Shown here: piece after piece, positions 26,215 through 40,290 of the stretch
Layout: each line of letters starts with the position of its first letter
Numbering within the stretch: position 1 is the stretch's first letter
From: Anaerococcus senegalensis JC48
GTDB taxonomy: Bacteria; Bacillota; Clostridia; Tissierellales; Peptoniphilaceae
Direction: 5' to 3'
Length of the DNA: 40,438 nt
NCBI RefSeq assembly: GCF_000321005.1
Contig: NZ_HE578908.1
Location: 173,243 to 213,680, forward strand
The notes under the pieces: model-generated
Database searches by the model: none
Seen by the model: only the letters and a program-made list of their open reading frames with translations
Told to the model about the DNA's origin: nothing
Translations under genes and position numbers: made by a program

Positions 26215-27250
26215 CTAAATTTCTATAATTTCATCAAATTTATTCAACATTTCCTCATCAATTTTATGAGTTATTATAATAACAGTTTGGTATAGTGATA
26301 GAAGTTTTTCTAAAACTTCTTTTGGGTTTTTGTCATCAAGTGATGCTGTCGGTTCATCGTAAATCATAATAGGTCTAGTTTTAACAAGAGATCTTAATAA
26401 GCTTATTCTCATCATCTCGCCTCCAGATAAGCCATCATTATCACTTACCTTATCACTTGATTTTTTATTTATATTAAACAAAGTTAAATCAATTTTTTTA
26501 CCCATTTCGTTTCTATAGAAATTTATATTATCTTTCAAATCCCCATCTATAATATTAGGTTTTTGGTCAACATATAAGATATAGTCCCTAAAATCAAAAT
26601 TTTTTATGTCTACATTATTCAATAAGATTTCTCCCTTATTAGGAGAAATTCTCCACATAAAATTTTTGCCAAGGTTAATTTTCCCTTCCCAGGTTCTCCT
26701 CTGATTAAATATTTATTTCCATAAGAAAAAACGAAATTAAAATCATCAACTATTTTTTTATCGGCATATAAAAAAGAAATATTTTTGGCAGAAAGATTTA
26801 TAGGAATTTTTAAATCTAAATTTTTCTTCCTATTTTATCTTTTGTTTAGGAGCTTTTTTATATTTTTATGGTCAAGGCTAGATTTATGGCATTTATTTTT
26901 ACCATAAAGCGATTGGCATATAAATTTTCGATATCTGTAGTGTAGTTTGCTATATTTATTTCCTTATTATTTTTCAAATCCTTTTTAAAAAGTTCATTTT
27001 TTAAACCAATAAATTTTTCCATCCCCATCCTATAGTTAAGCCTAAAGGCAAGATTTGATGAAATAAAATTTATCAAAATCAAAAATACTAATTTTATAAG
27101 GTTAGATTTAAATTCTACCATATTCAAATTTGAAATTGAAGTTACAACTTTTCCCATAAAAATTCCAATTAAAGAAAGACTTGATGATGTAAAAATTAAG
27201 AACAATATTATTAGTAAATAAGTTGTAAAAGATTTTGTTTTGCTTTTCAT
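26215..27250 (-). pseudogene. Eroded ABC exporter (membrane domain plus ATPase)
   Basis: Two incomplete parts of one ABC half-exporter. From 27250 to 26858 an N-terminal membrane domain of 130 residues with about two helices remains, starting MKSKTKSF behind AGAGGAAAG, and it stops early. From about 26825 the ATPase domain continues in other frames: residues SAKNISFLYAD, a damaged Walker A GEPGKGKLTL (Leu where Ser/Thr should be), then a frameshift near 26655. Next come SPNKGEILLNNVDI, signature LSGGEMMR, Walker B IMIYDEPTASLD and ITHK. The second half of the membrane domain is missing. No function is expected. Confidence 0.85.
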
Positions 27251-32355: not shown

Positions 32356-32589
32356 TTACCATACTGATTTTTCTTTTACAAAAAATTTATATATTGAATA
32401 TATAATAGCTCCAAGTATAGCCATTGGAACTAACAAAAATAGGATAGGAATAATTATAAGGCCACCACCTATTAAAATCGGAATTAAAAGTGCAAAAGCC
32501 ATTGAAAAAATAAACTTTAATACTTTCAAAGATATAATCACTCCTAAAACTGTTAGTATTATTTTAATAATTTTATTTTTATTATCCAT
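32356..32589 (-). CDS. Small membrane protein (77 residues), unknown
   Basis: Two or three hydrophobic stretches (about residues 8-24, 27-45 and 47-66), a short lysine-rich N-terminus (MDNKNKIIK) and a basic tail FFVKEKSVW. The ATG at 32589 has AAAGGTGAT upstream; the earlier GTG in frame is part of that site. It follows a 57-residue membrane protein by 12 bases, and both have similar composition. No family was recognised. The pair might be a small membrane complex. Confidence 0.75.
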   Translation of the reverse strand: MDNKNKIIKIILTVLGVIISLKVLKFIFSMAFALLIPILIGGGLIIIPILFLLVPMAILGAIIYSIYKFFVKEKSVW

Positions 32590-32601
32590 TTCTATCACCT
32601 T

Positions 32602-32913: not shown

Positions 32914-33607
32914 CTTCTATAGATATTTTTATTTTTTCTTTAAATTTTTCACCACTTTTTAAAATATAAGGATCATTGATTTTTTTAGTAAAACTTGGAC
33001 CATTTAAACATGGTTCTAGACATAAATATTCCCCATGAAAATCGGTCCATATAGCAAATTCATTAAATTTTTCATTTTCTACTAAAATATCAAAATATTT
33101 CCCCTTAATATTTGCCTTCTTTTCTTTTAGAAAATATGTGTCTTCTAATTTTATATTTTCAAGATTTACATCTTCAATCTTAAAATTTTTGTCTATATAA
33201 AAATAAGGGTGAAAACCAGGTGCAATTTCTAAATCTTTATTCGATTTATTTATTATTTCAAGGTAAACAAAAAGATTAGAATCTTTTAATTCATATCTTA
33301 TTTTATAAAAAGAATTTTTATATTCTTCTTTTCCTTCGAGTTTTAGATTAATGAAATTATCACCTTTTTCTTCTATATCCCAAAAAGAGACTCTTCCAAA
33401 ACCATGTTGATCAAGATTTTTTATCTCACTTTTTCCAAAATTTGGAAGACAAGGGTGCATTCCTCCCCTTGTTTTTAAATCATCTTTTATTTTTAACATT
33501 AGTTTCGGAAAAAAAATAGCCTTATTATTTTTAGTAAATTTTTCTATGTAGGCTCCATAGGAATTTACTGTCATTTCTAGATTTTTTTCTTTTAATTTTA
33601 TTTTCAT
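32909..33607 (-). CDS. Aldose 1-epimerase-like protein (galactose mutarotase superfamily)
   Basis: A 232-residue beta-sandwich sugar-binding protein. Recognisable parts are GGMHPCLPNFG near residue 48, LDQHGFGRVSFW near 66, the PGFHPYFY motif near 130, and FAIWTDFHGEYLCLEPC near 185. The His residues in QHGF and FHPYF match mutarotase catalytic positions, and Glu in LEPC fits the general base. It is short and resembles glucose-6-phosphate 1-epimerase-like (YeaD) proteins more than GalM. The ribosome site is weak (AAAGAT). It may be read by readthrough from the ferritin gene 52 bases upstream. Confidence 0.82.
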   Translation of the reverse strand: MKIKLKEKNLEMTVNSYGAYIEKFTKNNKAIFFPKLMLKIKDDLKTRGGMHPCLPNFGKSEIKNLDQHGFGRVSFWDIEEKGDNFINLKLEGKEEYKNSFYKIRYELKDSNLFVYLEIINKSNKDLEIAPGFHPYFYIDKNFKIEDVNLENIKLEDTYFLKEKKANIKGKYFDILVENEKFNEFAIWTDFHGEYLCLEPCLNGPSFTKKINDPYILKSGEKFKEKIKISIED

Positions 33608-33624
33608 ATCTTTAATTTATCTAA

Positions 33625-33652
33625 CAAAAAAAGACCAAGTAAAACTTGGCCT
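33625..33652 (-). terminator. Ferritin gene terminator
   Basis: A 9-bp stem (33632-33640 with 33644-33652, one G-U pair) and a run of seven T residues on the minus strand, directly after the ferritin stop. Confidence 0.82.
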
Positions 33653-33659
33653 CAATTTA

Positions 33660-34145
33660 TTATCCTCTGTGTGCAAGTTGGCCATCAAGAATGTAAAGGC
33701 CACCGTAATTTCCATTAATTCTTTCAAGTCTTGTAACAAGTTTTCCGAAAGTATCTTCTTCTTCAACTTGTTCATCAACAAACAATTGGATAAATGAAAT
33801 TACTCTTTCATCTCCTTCTTCTCTTGCAGCTTTTGCTATTTCATGAATTCTTCTTGTAACTTCTTTTTCATGATCTAAAGCTTTTTTTGTTACATCTAAT
33901 AGGTCTTCAAATTCTTCATTTGGAGCTTCCATTGCTTTATATACTGGTTTATATCCAACTTCTTGTAAGAATTTAGTCATTTTTTCAGCATGTTCAATTT
34001 CTTCTCTAACTTGGTGTCCAAACCAGTGAGCAAATCCTTCAAATTCTTCATCATCAGCATAAATTTGCATAGCCTTGTATTCATATGCTGATTGTAATTC
34101 AAAGTTCATTTGGTCATTGATCATTTCTAGTAATTTTTCACTCAT
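33660..34145 (-). CDS. ftnA: Ferritin
   Basis: A 161-residue non-heme ferritin that oxidises and stores iron in a 24-subunit shell. Ferroxidase residues are visible: Glu in MNFELQSAYEY near 16, Glu-x-x-His in EEIEHAEKM near 49-52, a Glu in LDHEKEVTRRI near 93, and Gln/Glu in FVDEQVEEE near 128. Length and the C-terminal RLERINGNYGGLYILD fit FtnA. The start lies 8 bases inside the end of a 98-residue gene of unknown function, implying coupled translation. It may protect the anaerobe against iron-driven oxidative damage. Confidence 0.96.
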   Translation of the reverse strand: MSEKLLEMINDQMNFELQSAYEYKAMQIYADDEEFEGFAHWFGHQVREEIEHAEKMTKFLQEVGYKPVYKAMEAPNEEFEDLLDVTKKALDHEKEVTRRIHEIAKAAREEGDERVISFIQLFVDEQVEEEDTFGKLVTRLERINGNYGGLYILDGQLAHRG

Positions 34146-34434
34146 TATATTTTCCTCCTAAATAATCATCATACAATACATATACACCATATATCATACA
34201 CTTATTTTTTATTAACTCTTTTATCACTTCTGTAATATTAGAAGAGATTAAATCTATGGTAATAGAAGATTTTTTAATTGCTAATCTATTAGTTTCAACT
34301 AAATTTTTTTCAACTAAACAATTAAAAATTCCCACAAGTTTATCTCTATCACTTATGTTAGTCTTTATTGTAACTGGTATTATATTATTTAATTGATCTT
34401 CATTTAAATTTTTTATTAGTAATACGTCAGCCAT
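34138..34434 (-). CDS. Unknown 98-residue protein coupled to ferritin
   Basis: The frame has a good ribosome site (GGGAGAG, 6-7 bases before ATG) and overlaps the ferritin start by 8 bases. The predicted pattern is beta-alpha-beta-beta-alpha-beta: PVTIKTNISDRDKLVGIFNC, NRLAIKKSSITIDLIS, NITEVIKELIKN and MIYGVYVLYDDYL. That order is like an ACT-type ligand domain, which is only a guess from pattern. No metal-binding or catalytic motif stands out. Its tight link to ferritin suggests an iron- or redox-related function or a regulator of it. Confidence 0.75.
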   Translation of the reverse strand: MADVLLIKNLNEDQLNNIIPVTIKTNISDRDKLVGIFNCLVEKNLVETNRLAIKKSSITIDLISSNITEVIKELIKNKCMIYGVYVLYDDYLGGKYNE

Positions 34435-36289: not shown

Positions 36290-36314
36290 AAAAAAAACAA
36301 GGAAAAATCCTTGC
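36290..36314 (-). terminator. Terminator of the bacteriocin-like operon
   Basis: Stem CAAGGA/TCCTTG (36298-36303 with 36308-36313), loop AAAA, followed by seven T residues on the minus strand. It follows the remains of the peptide exporter gene. Confidence 0.82.
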
Positions 36315-36318
36315 TTTT

Positions 36319-37287
36319 TTATATTGGTGAAATCGCTAAGTTATTTACCATTTCTCTATAAAATTCATTCTCCCTTAATAAGTCTTTATGACTTCCTTTT
36401 GAAATAATCTTTCCCCCATCCATAAAATATATTAAGTCACTATCAACAATAGAGCTAAGTCTGTGAGCTATAGTTATTGTGGTAATTTTATCTGAAATCT
36501 CCTTAAATAAATCACTAATCTTTTTTTCAGTTATACTATCTAGATGGCTTGTAGCTTCATCCAATATTAATATTTCTGGTTTTTTTAATAAAGCTCTACA
36601 AATTGCAAATCTTTGATTCTGACCTTCTGATAAATTCGAGGCATCTTCTTCTATGATTGTATCAAGACCAATGGGTAGTTTTTCTAAAAAATCTTCTAAA
36701 CCTACAATTTTAAGATAATCTTTAATTTTTTTATCATCAATATATATTTCCAAGTAATAGATTCTCTCTAATTGTCGCTTTAAAAAAGAATATAGATTGA
36801 GAAATATAAACTATTTTAGATCTTAACCAACTTTTACTTATTTTTTCAATAGGATATCTGTTTATATTTATTATCCCTTCATCTACTTTGTAATAATCCA
36901 TCAATAACTTAACTAAAGTAGTTTTACCACAACCACTAGGTCCAACTATAGCTATTTTATCACCTTTACTTATGTTTAATGAAATATCTTCTAAAACTCT
37001 ATCCCTATAACCATATGAAAAGTTCAAGTCTTTTACTTCTATAGTTTTTATTTCATCAGATGGCACAATTCCATCAAGATTTTCTTTCGGACTTATATCT
37101 ATTTCATAAAGCCTAGCTTTTGTGCTGCCTTTACTAATCCCACTCCATTAGTTCCCTTGCTATCGGTTTTCGCATATTGACGAATTCTAACTATATCTTT
37201 ATTTCTACCATAAAATTTACATACTGTAGCCAAGCATGCAGCAGCACAATCAGTAGAATCTTTTTGTCTAACAGATGGATATTTCAT
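36319..37287 (-). pseudogene. Peptidase-containing ABC exporter (PCAT, C39 family), inactivated
   Basis: The start (37287) encodes a C39 peptidase beginning MKYPSVRQKDSTDC, with the catalytic Cys14 and oxyanion-hole Gln8, up to LVKAAQKLGF. At about 37110-37120 the sequence jumps to the linker of the ATPase (RLYEIDISPKENLDG) in another frame. The rest of the peptidase, including its His, and the whole membrane domain (roughly 370 residues in relatives) are gone. The junction GCTAGGCTTT reads plausibly in both parents (KLGF and ARLY), so recombination between short repeats is likely. The ATPase has Walker A GPSGCGKTT, then a second frameshift in an AT repeat near 36740-36753, then LSEGQNQR, ILILDEATSHLD and IAHRL. 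It cannot cleave or export peptides. Confidence 0.9.
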
Positions 37288-38270
37288 TATATGTCCCTTT
37301 TGTTTAAATGTGTACTTGAAATTATATACATCAAAATACCTAGTATAAATATAATAATTATTCCTTTAGTAAAGGTAAAATAATCATTTATCGGAGTATT
37401 TAAAAAATTAGATATATTTGCATAAGGTAGGAAAGTATATGATATTATTTTTGAATCCACTTTTAAATCTATAAGTTTATTTGATAATGAAAATCCTAAA
37501 AGAAAATACAAGATAGATATAATCCTTGAAATTAAAGAATTTTTAGAAATTTCTGTCAAAGCAAAAGTAATTATAGATAAAAATATCGCAGTTATTAACC
37601 ACAAGGAAATATTTATTAGGCTATGAACTAAATAAGTATGTTCGTAGACATTGTGGCTAAAATAAAATACAGTCTTTTTAAATCCACCTTCAAATCCATA
37701 AAACAAGCCACCAGCAATGAAGGTGATAAGACTAGATACTGCTATTATAGCTACAACACTAATAAGTAAAGCGATTATTTTAGTATTAAAGCTATAAAAT
37801 CTTGAAAATTTTTGACTATATATATAATCCTCCATCTTATTTTCTATCTCTAGACCATATAATTTTGATGATAAATATATAATAAAAATAAGTACGGCTA
37901 TATTAATATAGTTAGATGTATAATTTAGGTATTCATAGCTACTATGACCCTTTACTGGAGCAATGTCATTATCTATTCTATACTTTAATATATCATTATT
38001 CATTTTGACCTTGTCTTTACCAACAACATCTTCTAAAGTTTTGTTAGCTTCTATCTGAACTTTAGCCTTATCTTTCCAAGTAGAAGCTGAGTTCATTTTT
38101 TCTTCAATTTTTATATCTTCTTCGTTATCTGTACTATCAGTATTAAAAATCCATAAAACAAGAGCATTTGAAACTAAAATAATTAAAAAAAGCGAAATAA
38201 TATTTTTAAAGTTAAATAGCTTTGATATTTCAACTGAAACTAGCCTTGAAAAATTCTTTATATCTCTCAT
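37287..38270 (-). CDS. ABC-2 type permease of the bacteriocin-like locus
   Basis: A 327-residue membrane protein with about six helices and a soluble loop at residues about 45-115 (DSTDNEEDIKIEEKM to HSSYEYLNYT). The layout (one helix, large extracellular loop, five helices, NKRDI end) is like ABC-2 permeases that work with BcrA- or LanF-type ATPases to expel bacteriocins or peptide antibiotics. Its start overlaps the ATPase stop by 4 bases, and its stop codon is TAATG, shared with the start of the exporter remnant, so it is part of one translationally coupled operon. The exact peptide handled is unknown. Confidence 0.85.
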   Translation of the reverse strand: MRDIKNFSRLVSVEISKLFNFKNIISLFLIILVSNALVLWIFNTDSTDNEEDIKIEEKMNSASTWKDKAKVQIEANKTLEDVVGKDKVKMNNDILKYRIDNDIAPVKGHSSYEYLNYTSNYINIAVLIFIIYLSSKLYGLEIENKMEDYIYSQKFSRFYSFNTKIIALLISVVAIIAVSSLITFIAGGLFYGFEGGFKKTVFYFSHNVYEHTYLVHSLINISLWLITAIFLSIITFALTEISKNSLISRIISILYFLLGFSLSNKLIDLKVDSKIISYTFLPYANISNFLNTPINDYFTFTKGIIIIFILGILMYIISSTHLNKRDI

Positions 38271-38983
38271 AACTTCTCCTTAAAATTAGCCTTATCTTCA
38301 TTTATCAACTTCATATATTGATCTTCTAAATCTTTTACATTATCGCTTTTTCCTAAATATTTACCCTTGTTCATAAATATCGCCTTATCACATACCAAGC
38401 TCATCTCAGATAGTATGTGACTAGAAAGTAAAACAGTCTTACCTTCTTTGTGACATATAACTTTTAAAAAATTTCGTAAATCTCTAATACCTTCTGGATC
38501 TAGACCATTTGTTGGCTCGTCTAAAAGGATTAAATCTGATTTTTTTATTAAAGTCATGGCTATTGCAACTCTTTGTCTCATTCCAAGAGAACACTTTTTT
38601 ATCTTTTTATCTAAATAATATTCAATATCTAATCTTTTTATTAGATTAATCACTTCTTCTTTACTAGTATCTGCATAGGCCATAGCTATTTTCAGATTAT
38701 CTTTAACAGTGAAATTTTCATAAAATGAAGGCTCACCTACCATGCCTGCCACATGAGTTTTATCTAACAATTTGCTGCCACTCGCTTCATGGATACTTAT
38801 TTGTCCTGTATAATTATATAGTCCTAAAAGACACTTAAAAAGTGTAGTCTTCCCAGCTCCATTAGGGCCTAAAAGTCCAACAATATTTCCTTTTGGAATC
38901 TTGGCTTTAAAATTTTTAAGAACTTTTTGTTTTGAAAATTCTTTTGATACATTATCAATAAAATAATAATTTTCAGTTTTCAT
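38267..38983 (-). CDS. ABC transporter ATP-binding protein of the bacteriocin-like locus
   Basis: A 238-residue ATPase with Walker A GPNGAGKTT near residues 39-47, signature CSLGMRQR near 131 (in place of LSGGQQR), Walker B LILLDEPTNGLDP near 155, and switch SSHIL. The S-L-G-M-R-Q-R signature is typical of BcrA/LanF-like ATPases involved in peptide antibiotic self-protection. It overlaps the permease (4 bases) and the CPBP gene (4 bases). With the permease it forms a likely immunity pump. Confidence 0.93.
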   Translation of the reverse strand: MKTENYYFIDNVSKEFSKQKVLKNFKAKIPKGNIVGLLGPNGAGKTTLFKCLLGLYNYTGQISIHEASGSKLLDKTHVAGMVGEPSFYENFTVKDNLKIAMAYADTSKEEVINLIKRLDIEYYLDKKIKKCSLGMRQRVAIAMTLIKKSDLILLDEPTNGLDPEGIRDLRNFLKVICHKEGKTVLLSSHILSEMSLVCDKAIFMNKGKYLGKSDNVKDLEDQYMKLINEDKANFKEKL

Positions 38984-39840
38984 ATTAACAACTCCTTTTT
39001 TGTATATGTTTTGAAAAATAATATAACTGCAAAAGCTCCAATTCCAACTAAAGTTATACTAATTGAAATAGGTAGTTCAAACACCATAGCCATTAATTCA
39101 TTTCCTTTAATAAATAATTCTATAATAGGAAATTTAACAGATATAAGCAAAAATAATGTTACAATTACATTTGAAAAAATATGATAAATAATAGAATATA
39201 AAATATTTTTACTATAAAAAAATATTAAGCATGATACCATGCCATCGATTAAAGTAACCCAAAATATTGGTCTTCCTGGACCATGAGAAAATGCAAATAG
39301 TATTGATGATATAATTAAAGCATATAGTTTACCAATCTTACTTGTAAAAGGTAAGTTCATAAAATACCTATAAACTAATTCCTCTAATATTGAACTTAAA
39401 AGAATTGTATTAATGAAATTATCTCCATTCGTATATGAGTATATCTTTTTAATATCTACTTTTTCTCCAATTGTATCTCCCATAGTTCTAAAAACACCAC
39501 TGCCGTATTTAAGTGTATACATGTATCCCAAAACCCTTTGAGCTACTATATAAACTAAAAATGAAATTAAAAATAGTAATAAAACTTCTTTTAAATTAAT
39601 TTTTCTAATCCCGTAGCCATTTTTTATAGAAGATGGTAACCTCATATATATTAACAACATAAGAACAATTTCCAAGCTCATAAAAATTGTGTCTATATTA
39701 GGTCCAAGACTATTATCGGAAAATGACCTAATAATATAAGCTTTTATATCCTGGTAAATAAACCCCTTATATCCTAAAAATAATACTATAAATATTAATG
39801 GATATAAGATTTTCAAAGATCCGAGTAATATTTTTTTCAT
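38980..39840 (-). CDS. CPBP family intramembrane metalloprotease-like protein
   Basis: A 286-residue membrane protein with about eight helices and the CPBP/Abi motifs: EELVYRYF (Glu153, Glu154, Arg158), FAFSH (Phe182 to His186), and HIFSN (His220, Asn224). All catalytic residues of active CAAX-type proteases are present. In bacteriocin loci such proteins confer immunity (PlnI, SkkI), and some process or mature peptides. Here it is the first gene after the peptide genes, with AAGGAG before ATG and 62 bases after the first peptide's stop. A role in self-protection or in cleaving the double-glycine peptides is inferred. Confidence 0.9.
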   Translation of the reverse strand: MKKILLGSLKILYPLIFIVLFLGYKGFIYQDIKAYIIRSFSDNSLGPNIDTIFMSLEIVLMLLIYMRLPSSIKNGYGIRKINLKEVLLLFLISFLVYIVAQRVLGYMYTLKYGSGVFRTMGDTIGEKVDIKKIYSYTNGDNFINTILLSSILEELVYRYFMNLPFTSKIGKLYALIISSILFAFSHGPGRPIFWVTLIDGMVSCLIFFYSKNILYSIIYHIFSNVIVTLFLLISVKFPIIELFIKGNELMAMVFELPISISITLVGIGAFAVILFFKTYTKKELLI

Positions 39841-39866
39841 AAATTCTCCTTCAATTAAATATATGG

Positions 39867-39880
39867 TAAGCGAGAAATAA
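39867..39880. repeat. 14-bp inverted repeat, arm 2 (before the CPBP gene)
   Basis: TAAGCGAGAAATAA on the plus strand; the exact complement lies at 40277-40290. In the minus-strand transcript the two arms are complementary and bracket both peptide genes. Confidence 0.85.
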
Positions 39881-39902
39881 ATTTGTTTTTACTTATATAA
39901 AA

Positions 39903-40046
39903 TTAATTATTTTTCCAGACGTCTTTAAATCCTCTTATTAAATTGCCTGCTCTATTATTTACAAAATCTTTAGCTTCTTCATAAATTTGAAATGGGTCGA
40001 AACCACCTTCAACTTTTTTTAGTTCTTTTTCTGTTAGTTCTTTCAT
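39903..40046 (-). CDS. Double-glycine-leader peptide, 47 residues (bacteriocin-like precursor)
   Basis: A small gene with AGGAAA 4 bases before the ATG. The first 15 residues MKELTEKELKKVEGG are a textbook double-glycine leader: Leu4, Glu8, Leu9, Val12, Gly14, Gly15. The predicted mature peptide has 32 residues (from FDPFQIYEEAKDF to KDVWKNN), with alternating hydrophobic and charged residues that could form an amphipathic helix. No Cys, so no disulfide or lanthionine. Class II bacteriocin or signalling peptide are the likely roles. It precedes CPBP, ABC and a ruined C39 exporter in the same direction, which is strong context. Confidence 0.86.
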   Translation of the reverse strand: MKELTEKELKKVEGGFDPFQIYEEAKDFVNNRAGNLIRGFKDVWKNN

Positions 40047-40105
40047 AATTTTCCTTTAAAATTTATAAATTAATAAAACTATAATACTATATTTAATTTA
40101 GTGAT
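40047..40105 (-). other. Spacer between the two peptide genes
   Basis: 59 AT-rich bases with only the first peptide's ribosome site recognised; no terminator hairpin was seen, so the two peptide genes may be co-transcribed. Confidence 0.5.
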
Positions 40106-40258
40106 TTAACCTCTAAAGTAATCTATTGCTCCCTTAACCTTAGATGATGTCCAATTCCAAGCTTTTTTTAGCAGCATAACCAATTTTGTAACCAAAATCA
40201 TAGTCTTCTTTATCTCCACCATTAACCAAATAAAGATCTTTTTTTCTAATAATTTCAT
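40106..40258 (-). pseudogene. Second double-glycine peptide, apparently shifted in two A-runs (50 codons)
   Basis: The ATG frame starts MKLLEKK and stays open for 50 codons, but its middle is meaningless. If one A is added to the first seven-A run and one removed from the second, the same DNA encodes MKLLEKKDLYLVNGG as leader (also 15 residues, with Leu4, Asp8, Leu9, Val12, Gly-Gly). The mature part then starts DKEDYDFGYKIGYAAKK and ends AWNWTSSKVKGAIDYFRG. That contains a GxxxG motif (GYKIG), as in class IIb two-peptide bacteriocins. The two changes compensate, so the C-terminal frame and stop are kept. Sequencing error, phase-variable tracts and true decay are all possible. Confidence 0.72.
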
Positions 40259-40276
40259 TCTTTCTACTTTATTTTC

Positions 40277-40290
40277 TTATTTCTCGCTTA
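40277..40290. repeat. 14-bp inverted repeat, arm 1 (before the second peptide gene)
   Basis: TTATTTCTCGCTTA on the plus strand, the exact complement of 39867-39880, located 18 bases upstream of the start codon of the shifted peptide gene. Confidence 0.85.

Follow-up and report, generated by a model that had tools for sequence, protein, structure and literature searches.

We analyzed a 40,438-nucleotide (nt) stretch (positions 173243-213680) of contig NZ_HE578908.1 of Anaerococcus senegalensis JC48 (hereafter, the window), part of a genome that is 99.76% complete, and describe a bacteriocin-like island at its right end. All genes of the island within the window are encoded on the minus strand; from right to left, between positions 40258 and 36319, they follow the order peptide 2, peptide 1, CPBP membrane protein, ATP-binding cassette (ABC) ATPase, permease, and remnant of a C39 exporter (Table 1). 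The CPBP and ATPase genes overlap by 4 nt, as do the ATPase and permease genes. Past the right end of the window, the same contig carries a regulator in two frames, followed by rpsI and rplM; on the left, a terminator-like hairpin lies between the island and chrA. The labels rpsI, rplM, and chrA were assigned by eye, without a profile scan. The positions that an initial annotation had given for the elements of the locus were all confirmed by reading frames and profile matches.

Table 1. Features of the island, listed from right to left in window coordinates (aa, amino acids)
Feature	Position	Strand	Basis
14-nt arm 1, forming a perfect inverted pair with arm 2, located 19-32 nt ahead of the start of peptide 2	40277..40290	-	candidate operator or chance
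Peptide 2 gene, frame-disrupted	40106..40258	-	intact 50-aa homologue in A. hydrogenalis
Peptide 1 gene, intact, 47 aa; GG-ending leader, mature part predicted at 32 residues	39903..40046	-	TIGR01847, above cut-off
14-nt arm 2, opposite orientation, 27-40 nt before the CPBP start	39867..39880	+	candidate operator or chance
CPBP (Rce1-like) membrane protein gene, intact, 286 aa	38980..39840	-	PF02517
ABC ATPase gene, 238 aa; closest to ATPases of lantibiotic protection	38267..38983	-	TIGR03740, below cut-off
ABC-2-like permease gene, 327 aa	37287..38270	-	weak PF12730 match; phylum relatives
Exporter remnant, opening 62 codons, covering the beginning of the C39 peptidase, cysteine included	37099..37287	-	PF03412 positions 1-59 of 133
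Exporter remnant, first half of the ATPase domain	36737..37066	-	TIGR01193 positions 473-572
Exporter remnant, latter half of the ATPase domain, in a different frame	36319..36753	-	TIGR01193 positions 577-708
Terminator-like hairpin between the island and chrA	36298..36313	+	consensus match only

The same island is present in Anaerococcus hydrogenalis DSM 7454 (contig NZ_ABXA01000034.1), where both peptides are open and the exporter is cut differently. In the window, the leader of peptide 1 scored 21.3 bits against the NCBIfam bacteriocin leader model (TIGR01847; cut-off 15.7), and the peptide matched the Bacteriocin_IIc, ComC, and EntF models below cut-off only. The initial annotation had regarded the peptides as unlike any known bacteriocin, which holds for the mature parts but not for this leader. 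Peptide 2 has its 5' and 3' ends in one frame and an internal stretch with the leader's GG in another. Its A. hydrogenalis counterpart is one continuous frame whose leader ends in LINGG and whose predicted mature part contains GYKIG; it has no NCBIfam or Pfam match and, used as a query, it matches two overlapping frames at window peptide 2 (E 1.7e-14 and 2.6e-9). Between the two genomes, peptide 2 differs by five substitutions, one of them synonymous, and two gap columns. Conservation of the small frames had been put forward as the check on the peptides: the sole relative found with the locus does keep both frames and their GG leaders, at an identity (143 of 144 bases for peptide 1, 98% in protein) too high for a test of third codon positions. 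Peptide 1 was found in 2 of 61 genomes (its own included) and 2 of 249 genomes of the order, which are the two island genomes; peptide 2, with the A. hydrogenalis query, matched in 32 of 130 genomes of the family at E ≤0.5, and below 0.01 in the two island genomes only.

The exporter is reduced to remnants in both genomes. The window copy, whose C39 fragment retains what we take to be the catalytic cysteine, lacks TIGR01193 positions 54-472, which comprise the rest of the C39 domain and the membrane domain; about 420 of 708 profile positions are gone, and the missing membrane domain had already been seen in the initial annotation. The A. hydrogenalis remnant extends its C39 part by about 10 residues, with a stop-free match up to profile position 71; of the ATPase domain, it retains just the tail, whereas the window copy keeps most of that domain. 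The sequence near the C39 cysteine is STDC in the window and STGC in A. hydrogenalis. As far as the remnants can be read, the two deletions are not nested; because each remnant holds parts absent from the other, the deletions should be separate events, and export was probably lost twice, separately in the two species. Related genomes had been suggested as a source of an intact exporter and peptide set, and A. hydrogenalis supplies the intact peptide pair but not the exporter. Since the leaders end in GG, as expected of class II double-glycine bacteriocins, but only exporter remnants lie nearby, we call the system bacteriocin-like rather than a working class II system. An intact C39 exporter was presumably encoded here in the past.

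No other C39 exporter match was found in a PF03412 search of the window's genome, which returned two places: the exporter remnant and a 297-aa protein with a best match to PF13529 (C39-like) and no transporter domain match. The proposal that an exporter elsewhere in the genome serves the peptide is thus unsupported. Some C39 match occurs in 31 of 31 genomes of the genus, and six other genomes have frames of 709-725 aa in which the C39 domain is nearly complete. We rejected these intact exporters as partners: five of the six surrounding stretches (14 to 19 kb) carry a protein with DUF4135 and LANC_like domains, presumably LanM, and none of the six has a relative of the peptides, CPBP, or permease at E ≤0.01.

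We compared the window with A. hydrogenalis in 200-nt windows. Outside the CPBP gene and the exporter deletions, the island is 94.5-99.5% identical; from 29.3 to 36.2 kb, identity is mostly 80-95%, dipping at about 30.2-31.0 and 32.4-32.6 kb and rising at about 33.5-34.2 kb. Synonymous divergence (dS) amounts to 0 in the helix-turn-helix (HTH) part of the regulator, 0.03 in the permease, and 0.13 in the ATPase; rpsI and rplM have 0.13-0.17, the chrA pair has 0.27-0.31, and the genes at 33660 and 34484 have 0.03 and 0.51, respectively. The simplest reading, although not proof, is that the island was recently shared between the two species. Occupancy of the site was surveyed through rpsI, found in all 31 genomes of the genus, 30 of which were returned as loci: the island is present in 2 of 30 and absent from 6 of the 8 genomes (the two island genomes included) in which the rpsI-chrA site is seen. 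In five of these six (G003, G007, G008, G023, and G030), the chrA pair comes about 136-482 nt after rpsI and the island is missing, and the sixth (G001) has an IS110-type transposase at the site (locus L118, 2410-3645, minus strand). The other 22 genomes are uninformative on the site, with no chrA within the 1.5 kb shown; a permease search, which placed the locus in only 2 of 31 genomes of the genus, indicates that they lack it too.

The CPBP protein matches PF02517 at 52.4 bits (cut-off 22.4) and has the motifs EExxxR, FxxxH, and HxxxN as EELVYR, FAFSH, and HIFSN at residues 153, 182, and 220; the profile match and the first two motifs place it in the CPBP/Rce1-like family. Within its gene, DNA identity to A. 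hydrogenalis drops to 64-80%, with mismatches concentrated at 39013-39826. The two alleles share 62% protein identity (dS 1.2; ratio of nonsynonymous to synonymous divergence, dN/dS, 0.22), and the motifs are intact in both. Replacement of the CPBP allele in one of the two species is the simplest reading of this pattern; it is a reading rather than proof because identity varies elsewhere too. Deep divergence is not confined to CPBP, since a sortase gene (PF04203; 30288-31055, minus strand) forms another block of low identity (66-74%) with flanks at about 88-91%. CPBP relatives were found in 2 of 61 genomes and in 4 of 130 family genomes, two of the latter being partial matches at 34-37% identity. 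On plasmids, 10 matches in Enterococcus (28-36% identity) are annotated as CAAX or CPBP proteases; there was no match in phages, one weak match of unknown function in PHROGs (E 0.008), and none to solved structures by sequence at E ≤0.1. The context of the gene suggests that CPBP is an immunity protein. Published accounts state that CPBP proteins have other roles besides immunity (PMC9298176) and that the role of such proteins is "not clearly understood" (PMC9298176) or unclear (PMC4860687).

The ATPase has its best NCBIfam match in TIGR03740, the model for LanF-type lantibiotic protection ATPases (E 1.1e-55; next match, E 1.1e-40), but its score of 188.8 bits is under the cut-off of 309.75, so we do not assign it to LanF. 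LanF systems usually have two permeases; here there is one, and no lanthipeptide enzyme was recognized by reading the adjoining frames. The permease scored 14.1 bits against PF12730 (cut-off 27), and all seven of its phylum relatives that were tested scored above the PF12679 cut-off, each beside an ATPase. Its further matches were three weak ones among 130 family genomes (24-25% identity) and six genomes of 398 in the phylum (20-24% identity). There was no match to the permease in plasmids, and its one match among solved structures by sequence (E 0.75) was taken as chance; a structure prediction from two near-identical rows was uninformative (mean predicted local distance difference test score, pLDDT, 42.1). 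PADLOC gave no match for peptide 1, CPBP, or the permease, and 17 of its models, mostly HTH-bearing, matched the HTH part of the regulator. A phage or plasmid origin is unsupported by the permease-plasmid, CPBP-phage, PHROGs, and PADLOC searches.

In both genomes, the regulator upstream consists of an 82-codon HTH frame that ends in a stop and, directly after it, a second frame with weak tetratricopeptide repeat (TPR) character; it may be Rgg/PlcR-like (RRNPP). HTH_3 matched above cut-off, and TPR models matched only at E 0.04-0.68. The two copies have 13 differences in 848 nt, none of them in the HTH codons, and the TPR half has no synonymous excess (2 of 9 changes, P 0.52, in the rough test described below). 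It is simpler to suppose that the regulator was broken before the two copies parted than that it is read in an unusual way. No histidine kinase, which is the type of quorum-sensing receptor found in the blp locus of Streptococcus pneumoniae, and no response regulator was recognized beside the island when frames were read by eye, without a profile scan.

Two 14-nt arms in opposite orientation surround the peptide genes; they may be regulator sites or a chance occurrence. Each of the two island genomes has two perfect copies of the arm, and five other genomes searched have none. The inverted pair is at most mildly unusual: a 14-nt pair appeared in 36 of 2000 shuffles of the 598-nt stretch, and shuffles of the 4.2-kb region gave some pair in 207 of 500 and a pair with at least four G or C in 12 of 500. 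Terminal repeats of a mobile element were rejected, as the arm forms no repeat family. RNA pairing of the arms was also rejected; the best fold contains the pairing but is unremarkable (z -1.23; matched by 9 of 100 shuffles).

The locus is real, stands above chance, and is well explained as a decayed bacteriocin-like island in which probable immunity is kept. As to its history and functions, we think it fairly probable that a bacteriocin-like cassette was acquired, lost export, and kept its likely immunity genes. A recombining island with an unmodified two-peptide system would have been acquired between rpsI and chrA in the two Anaerococcus species. Its intact ancestor would have held the regulator, two double-glycine peptides, the CPBP protein and pump, and a C39 exporter that cleaved the double-glycine leaders and exported both peptides, with CPBP and the ATPase/permease pump protecting the cell. 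A different internal deletion would later have cut down the exporter in each species, the regulator being frame-broken in both and peptide 2 also broken in the window strain. Without peptide processing and export there would now be no active product; CPBP and the pump remain, and the cell is probably still protected against producers of the same or similar peptides. We infer that the peptides kill bacteria, that CPBP and the pump give immunity, and that immunity explains their persistence. That CPBP has persisted and changed its allele points to, without proving, a continued benefit of protection. The initial annotation had proposed the same division between lost production and kept protection, and the two exporter deletions, the intact CPBP motifs, and a synonymous excess in the ATPase and permease support it.

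Several points weigh against this account. The pump resembles known protection pumps only distantly, and its cargo could be different. CPBP is strongly diverged between the species and the neighboring peptides are not, a poor fit to strict one-to-one immunity. On the left side, the non-nesting of the exporter deletions rests on about 10 residues. Four of the five peptide 2 substitutions alter residues, and coding constraint on the peptides cannot be shown because their relatives occur only in the two genomes, at 95-99% identity. The mature part of peptide 1 has a net charge of 0 in the window and +2 in A. hydrogenalis; a neutral net charge is unusual for a killing peptide. Two-peptide (class IIb) bacteriocins carry GxxxG-like motifs in both mature peptides, whereas here, by eye, such a motif is seen in A. 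hydrogenalis peptide 2 (GYKIG), and peptide 1 has just GNLIRG. Finally, the GG pattern alone is within chance (14 matches over 40 shuffled windows, with at least one in 11 of 40). It matches 2 of 177 small open reading frames (ORFs) of the window, one of which (32356-32598) looks spurious, and 2 of 106 in a 20-kb stretch of A. hydrogenalis, where the two are the neighboring peptides. The peptides are above chance because of their neighborhood, the leader score, and the second genome, not the pattern by itself.

It is unlikely that the whole locus is a dead island in which CPBP and the pump are open only because decay is recent. Exporter, regulator, and peptide 2 are all broken, and the permease differs at just 11 of 984 bases between the two genomes, so open frames are expected for some time; however, changes relative to A. 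hydrogenalis are enriched for synonymous ones in both the ATPase (16 of 23, P 3e-7) and the permease (6 of 11, P 0.013). This neutral-draw test is rough, with a null that takes no account of transition bias, and some of the ATPase changes may predate the loss of the exporter, which weakens the argument. A dead locus also need not acquire a different, motif-complete CPBP allele.

We find it improbable that the peptides are signals, a double-glycine pheromone pair tied to the HTH/TPR regulator, with CPBP acting in processing or signaling. Such a role would suit the regulator upstream, the neutral charge of peptide 1 in the window, and its sub-cut-off ComC and EntF matches. It also has a precedent in SilX of Streptococcus anginosus, deletion of which abolished anti-Listeria activity without causing sensitivity to the strain's own bacteriocin, and which may process a signal peptide (PMC9298176). 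In contrast, the reported exporter of the SHP pheromones of Rgg regulators is PptAB, not a C39 exporter (PMC7018657). The lack of a recognized histidine kinase or response regulator and the protection-like pump adjoining the peptides also argue against signaling. It is very improbable that the peptides are still exported by another transporter, or that the peptide set is complete and sequencing errors account for the breaks seen in peptide 2 and the regulator. A second exporter can serve double-glycine peptides, as ComAB does for blp peptides (PMC12150690), and just two gap columns besides substitutions separate peptide 2 from the intact gene, but the genome has no other C39 exporter match, the large exporter deletion is no length error, and two different genomes show the regulator broken in the same way.

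Decayed loci of this kind are already known in pneumococci. The rtg locus of S. pneumoniae is an Rgg-regulated peptidase-containing ABC transporter (PCAT) locus that persists although rtgA is disrupted in 59.1% of 318 genomes; immunity-like genes follow most of its peptide genes, and an inverted repeat in both promoters is a likely regulator site (PMC7018657). The Anaerococcus island likewise has an HTH-type regulator, several double-glycine peptides, a disrupted C39 exporter, and an inverted repeat. Its peptides are different, the excerpt on rtg mentions no CPBP or CAAX protein (PMC7018657), and it has two exporter losses in two species, a broken regulator, and an ABC pump. In the blp locus, many strains have an inactivated blpA, for which ComAB substitutes (PMC12150690); CAAX proteases are classed among the immunity genes, and diversity is said to stem most likely from recombination (PMC4860687). 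The island resembles blp in its CAAX-type gene, exporter inactivation, and recombination-linked diversity; it differs in that blp has a quorum-sensing receptor and a second exporter in ComAB, whereas the window's genome yielded no second C39 exporter. The LanM lanthipeptide clusters of other Anaerococcus genomes are comparable in having C39 exporters, intact in their case, and differ in lacking relatives of the peptides, CPBP, or permease at E ≤0.01. We found no account of the island in the titles and abstract openings of the papers listed on Anaerococcus, or Anaerococcus hydrogenalis, with bacteriocin, or on Anaerococcus with double-glycine; one of these papers concerns sactibiotic-like clusters (PMC3132745).

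Anaerococcus is common in human skin, vaginal, and gut communities. The case in this genus consists of two different export losses, in species whose islands are nearly identical, together with a probable CPBP swap. We tentatively raise a further reading, less likely to be right than wrong, in which a weapon was turned into a shield whose specificity changed by CPBP swapping: export would have been deleted separately in the two species and CPBP alone replaced by a diverged, motif-complete allele, as if the island now served as an exchangeable immunity module against neighbors' peptides. With nearly the same peptides, the same pump, and two very different CPBP alleles, the two islands form a small, clean natural experiment on whether CPBP sets specificity.

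Two minor observations lie outside the island. At 26215-27250 (minus strand), two fragments resemble another broken ABC exporter; the first matches ABC_tran and the second has no Pfam match. The stretch at 33597-34196, over a 161-aa gene at 33660, is 97-99% identical to A. hydrogenalis with flanks at about 85-92%, which may reflect either strong constraint at silent sites or recent exchange.

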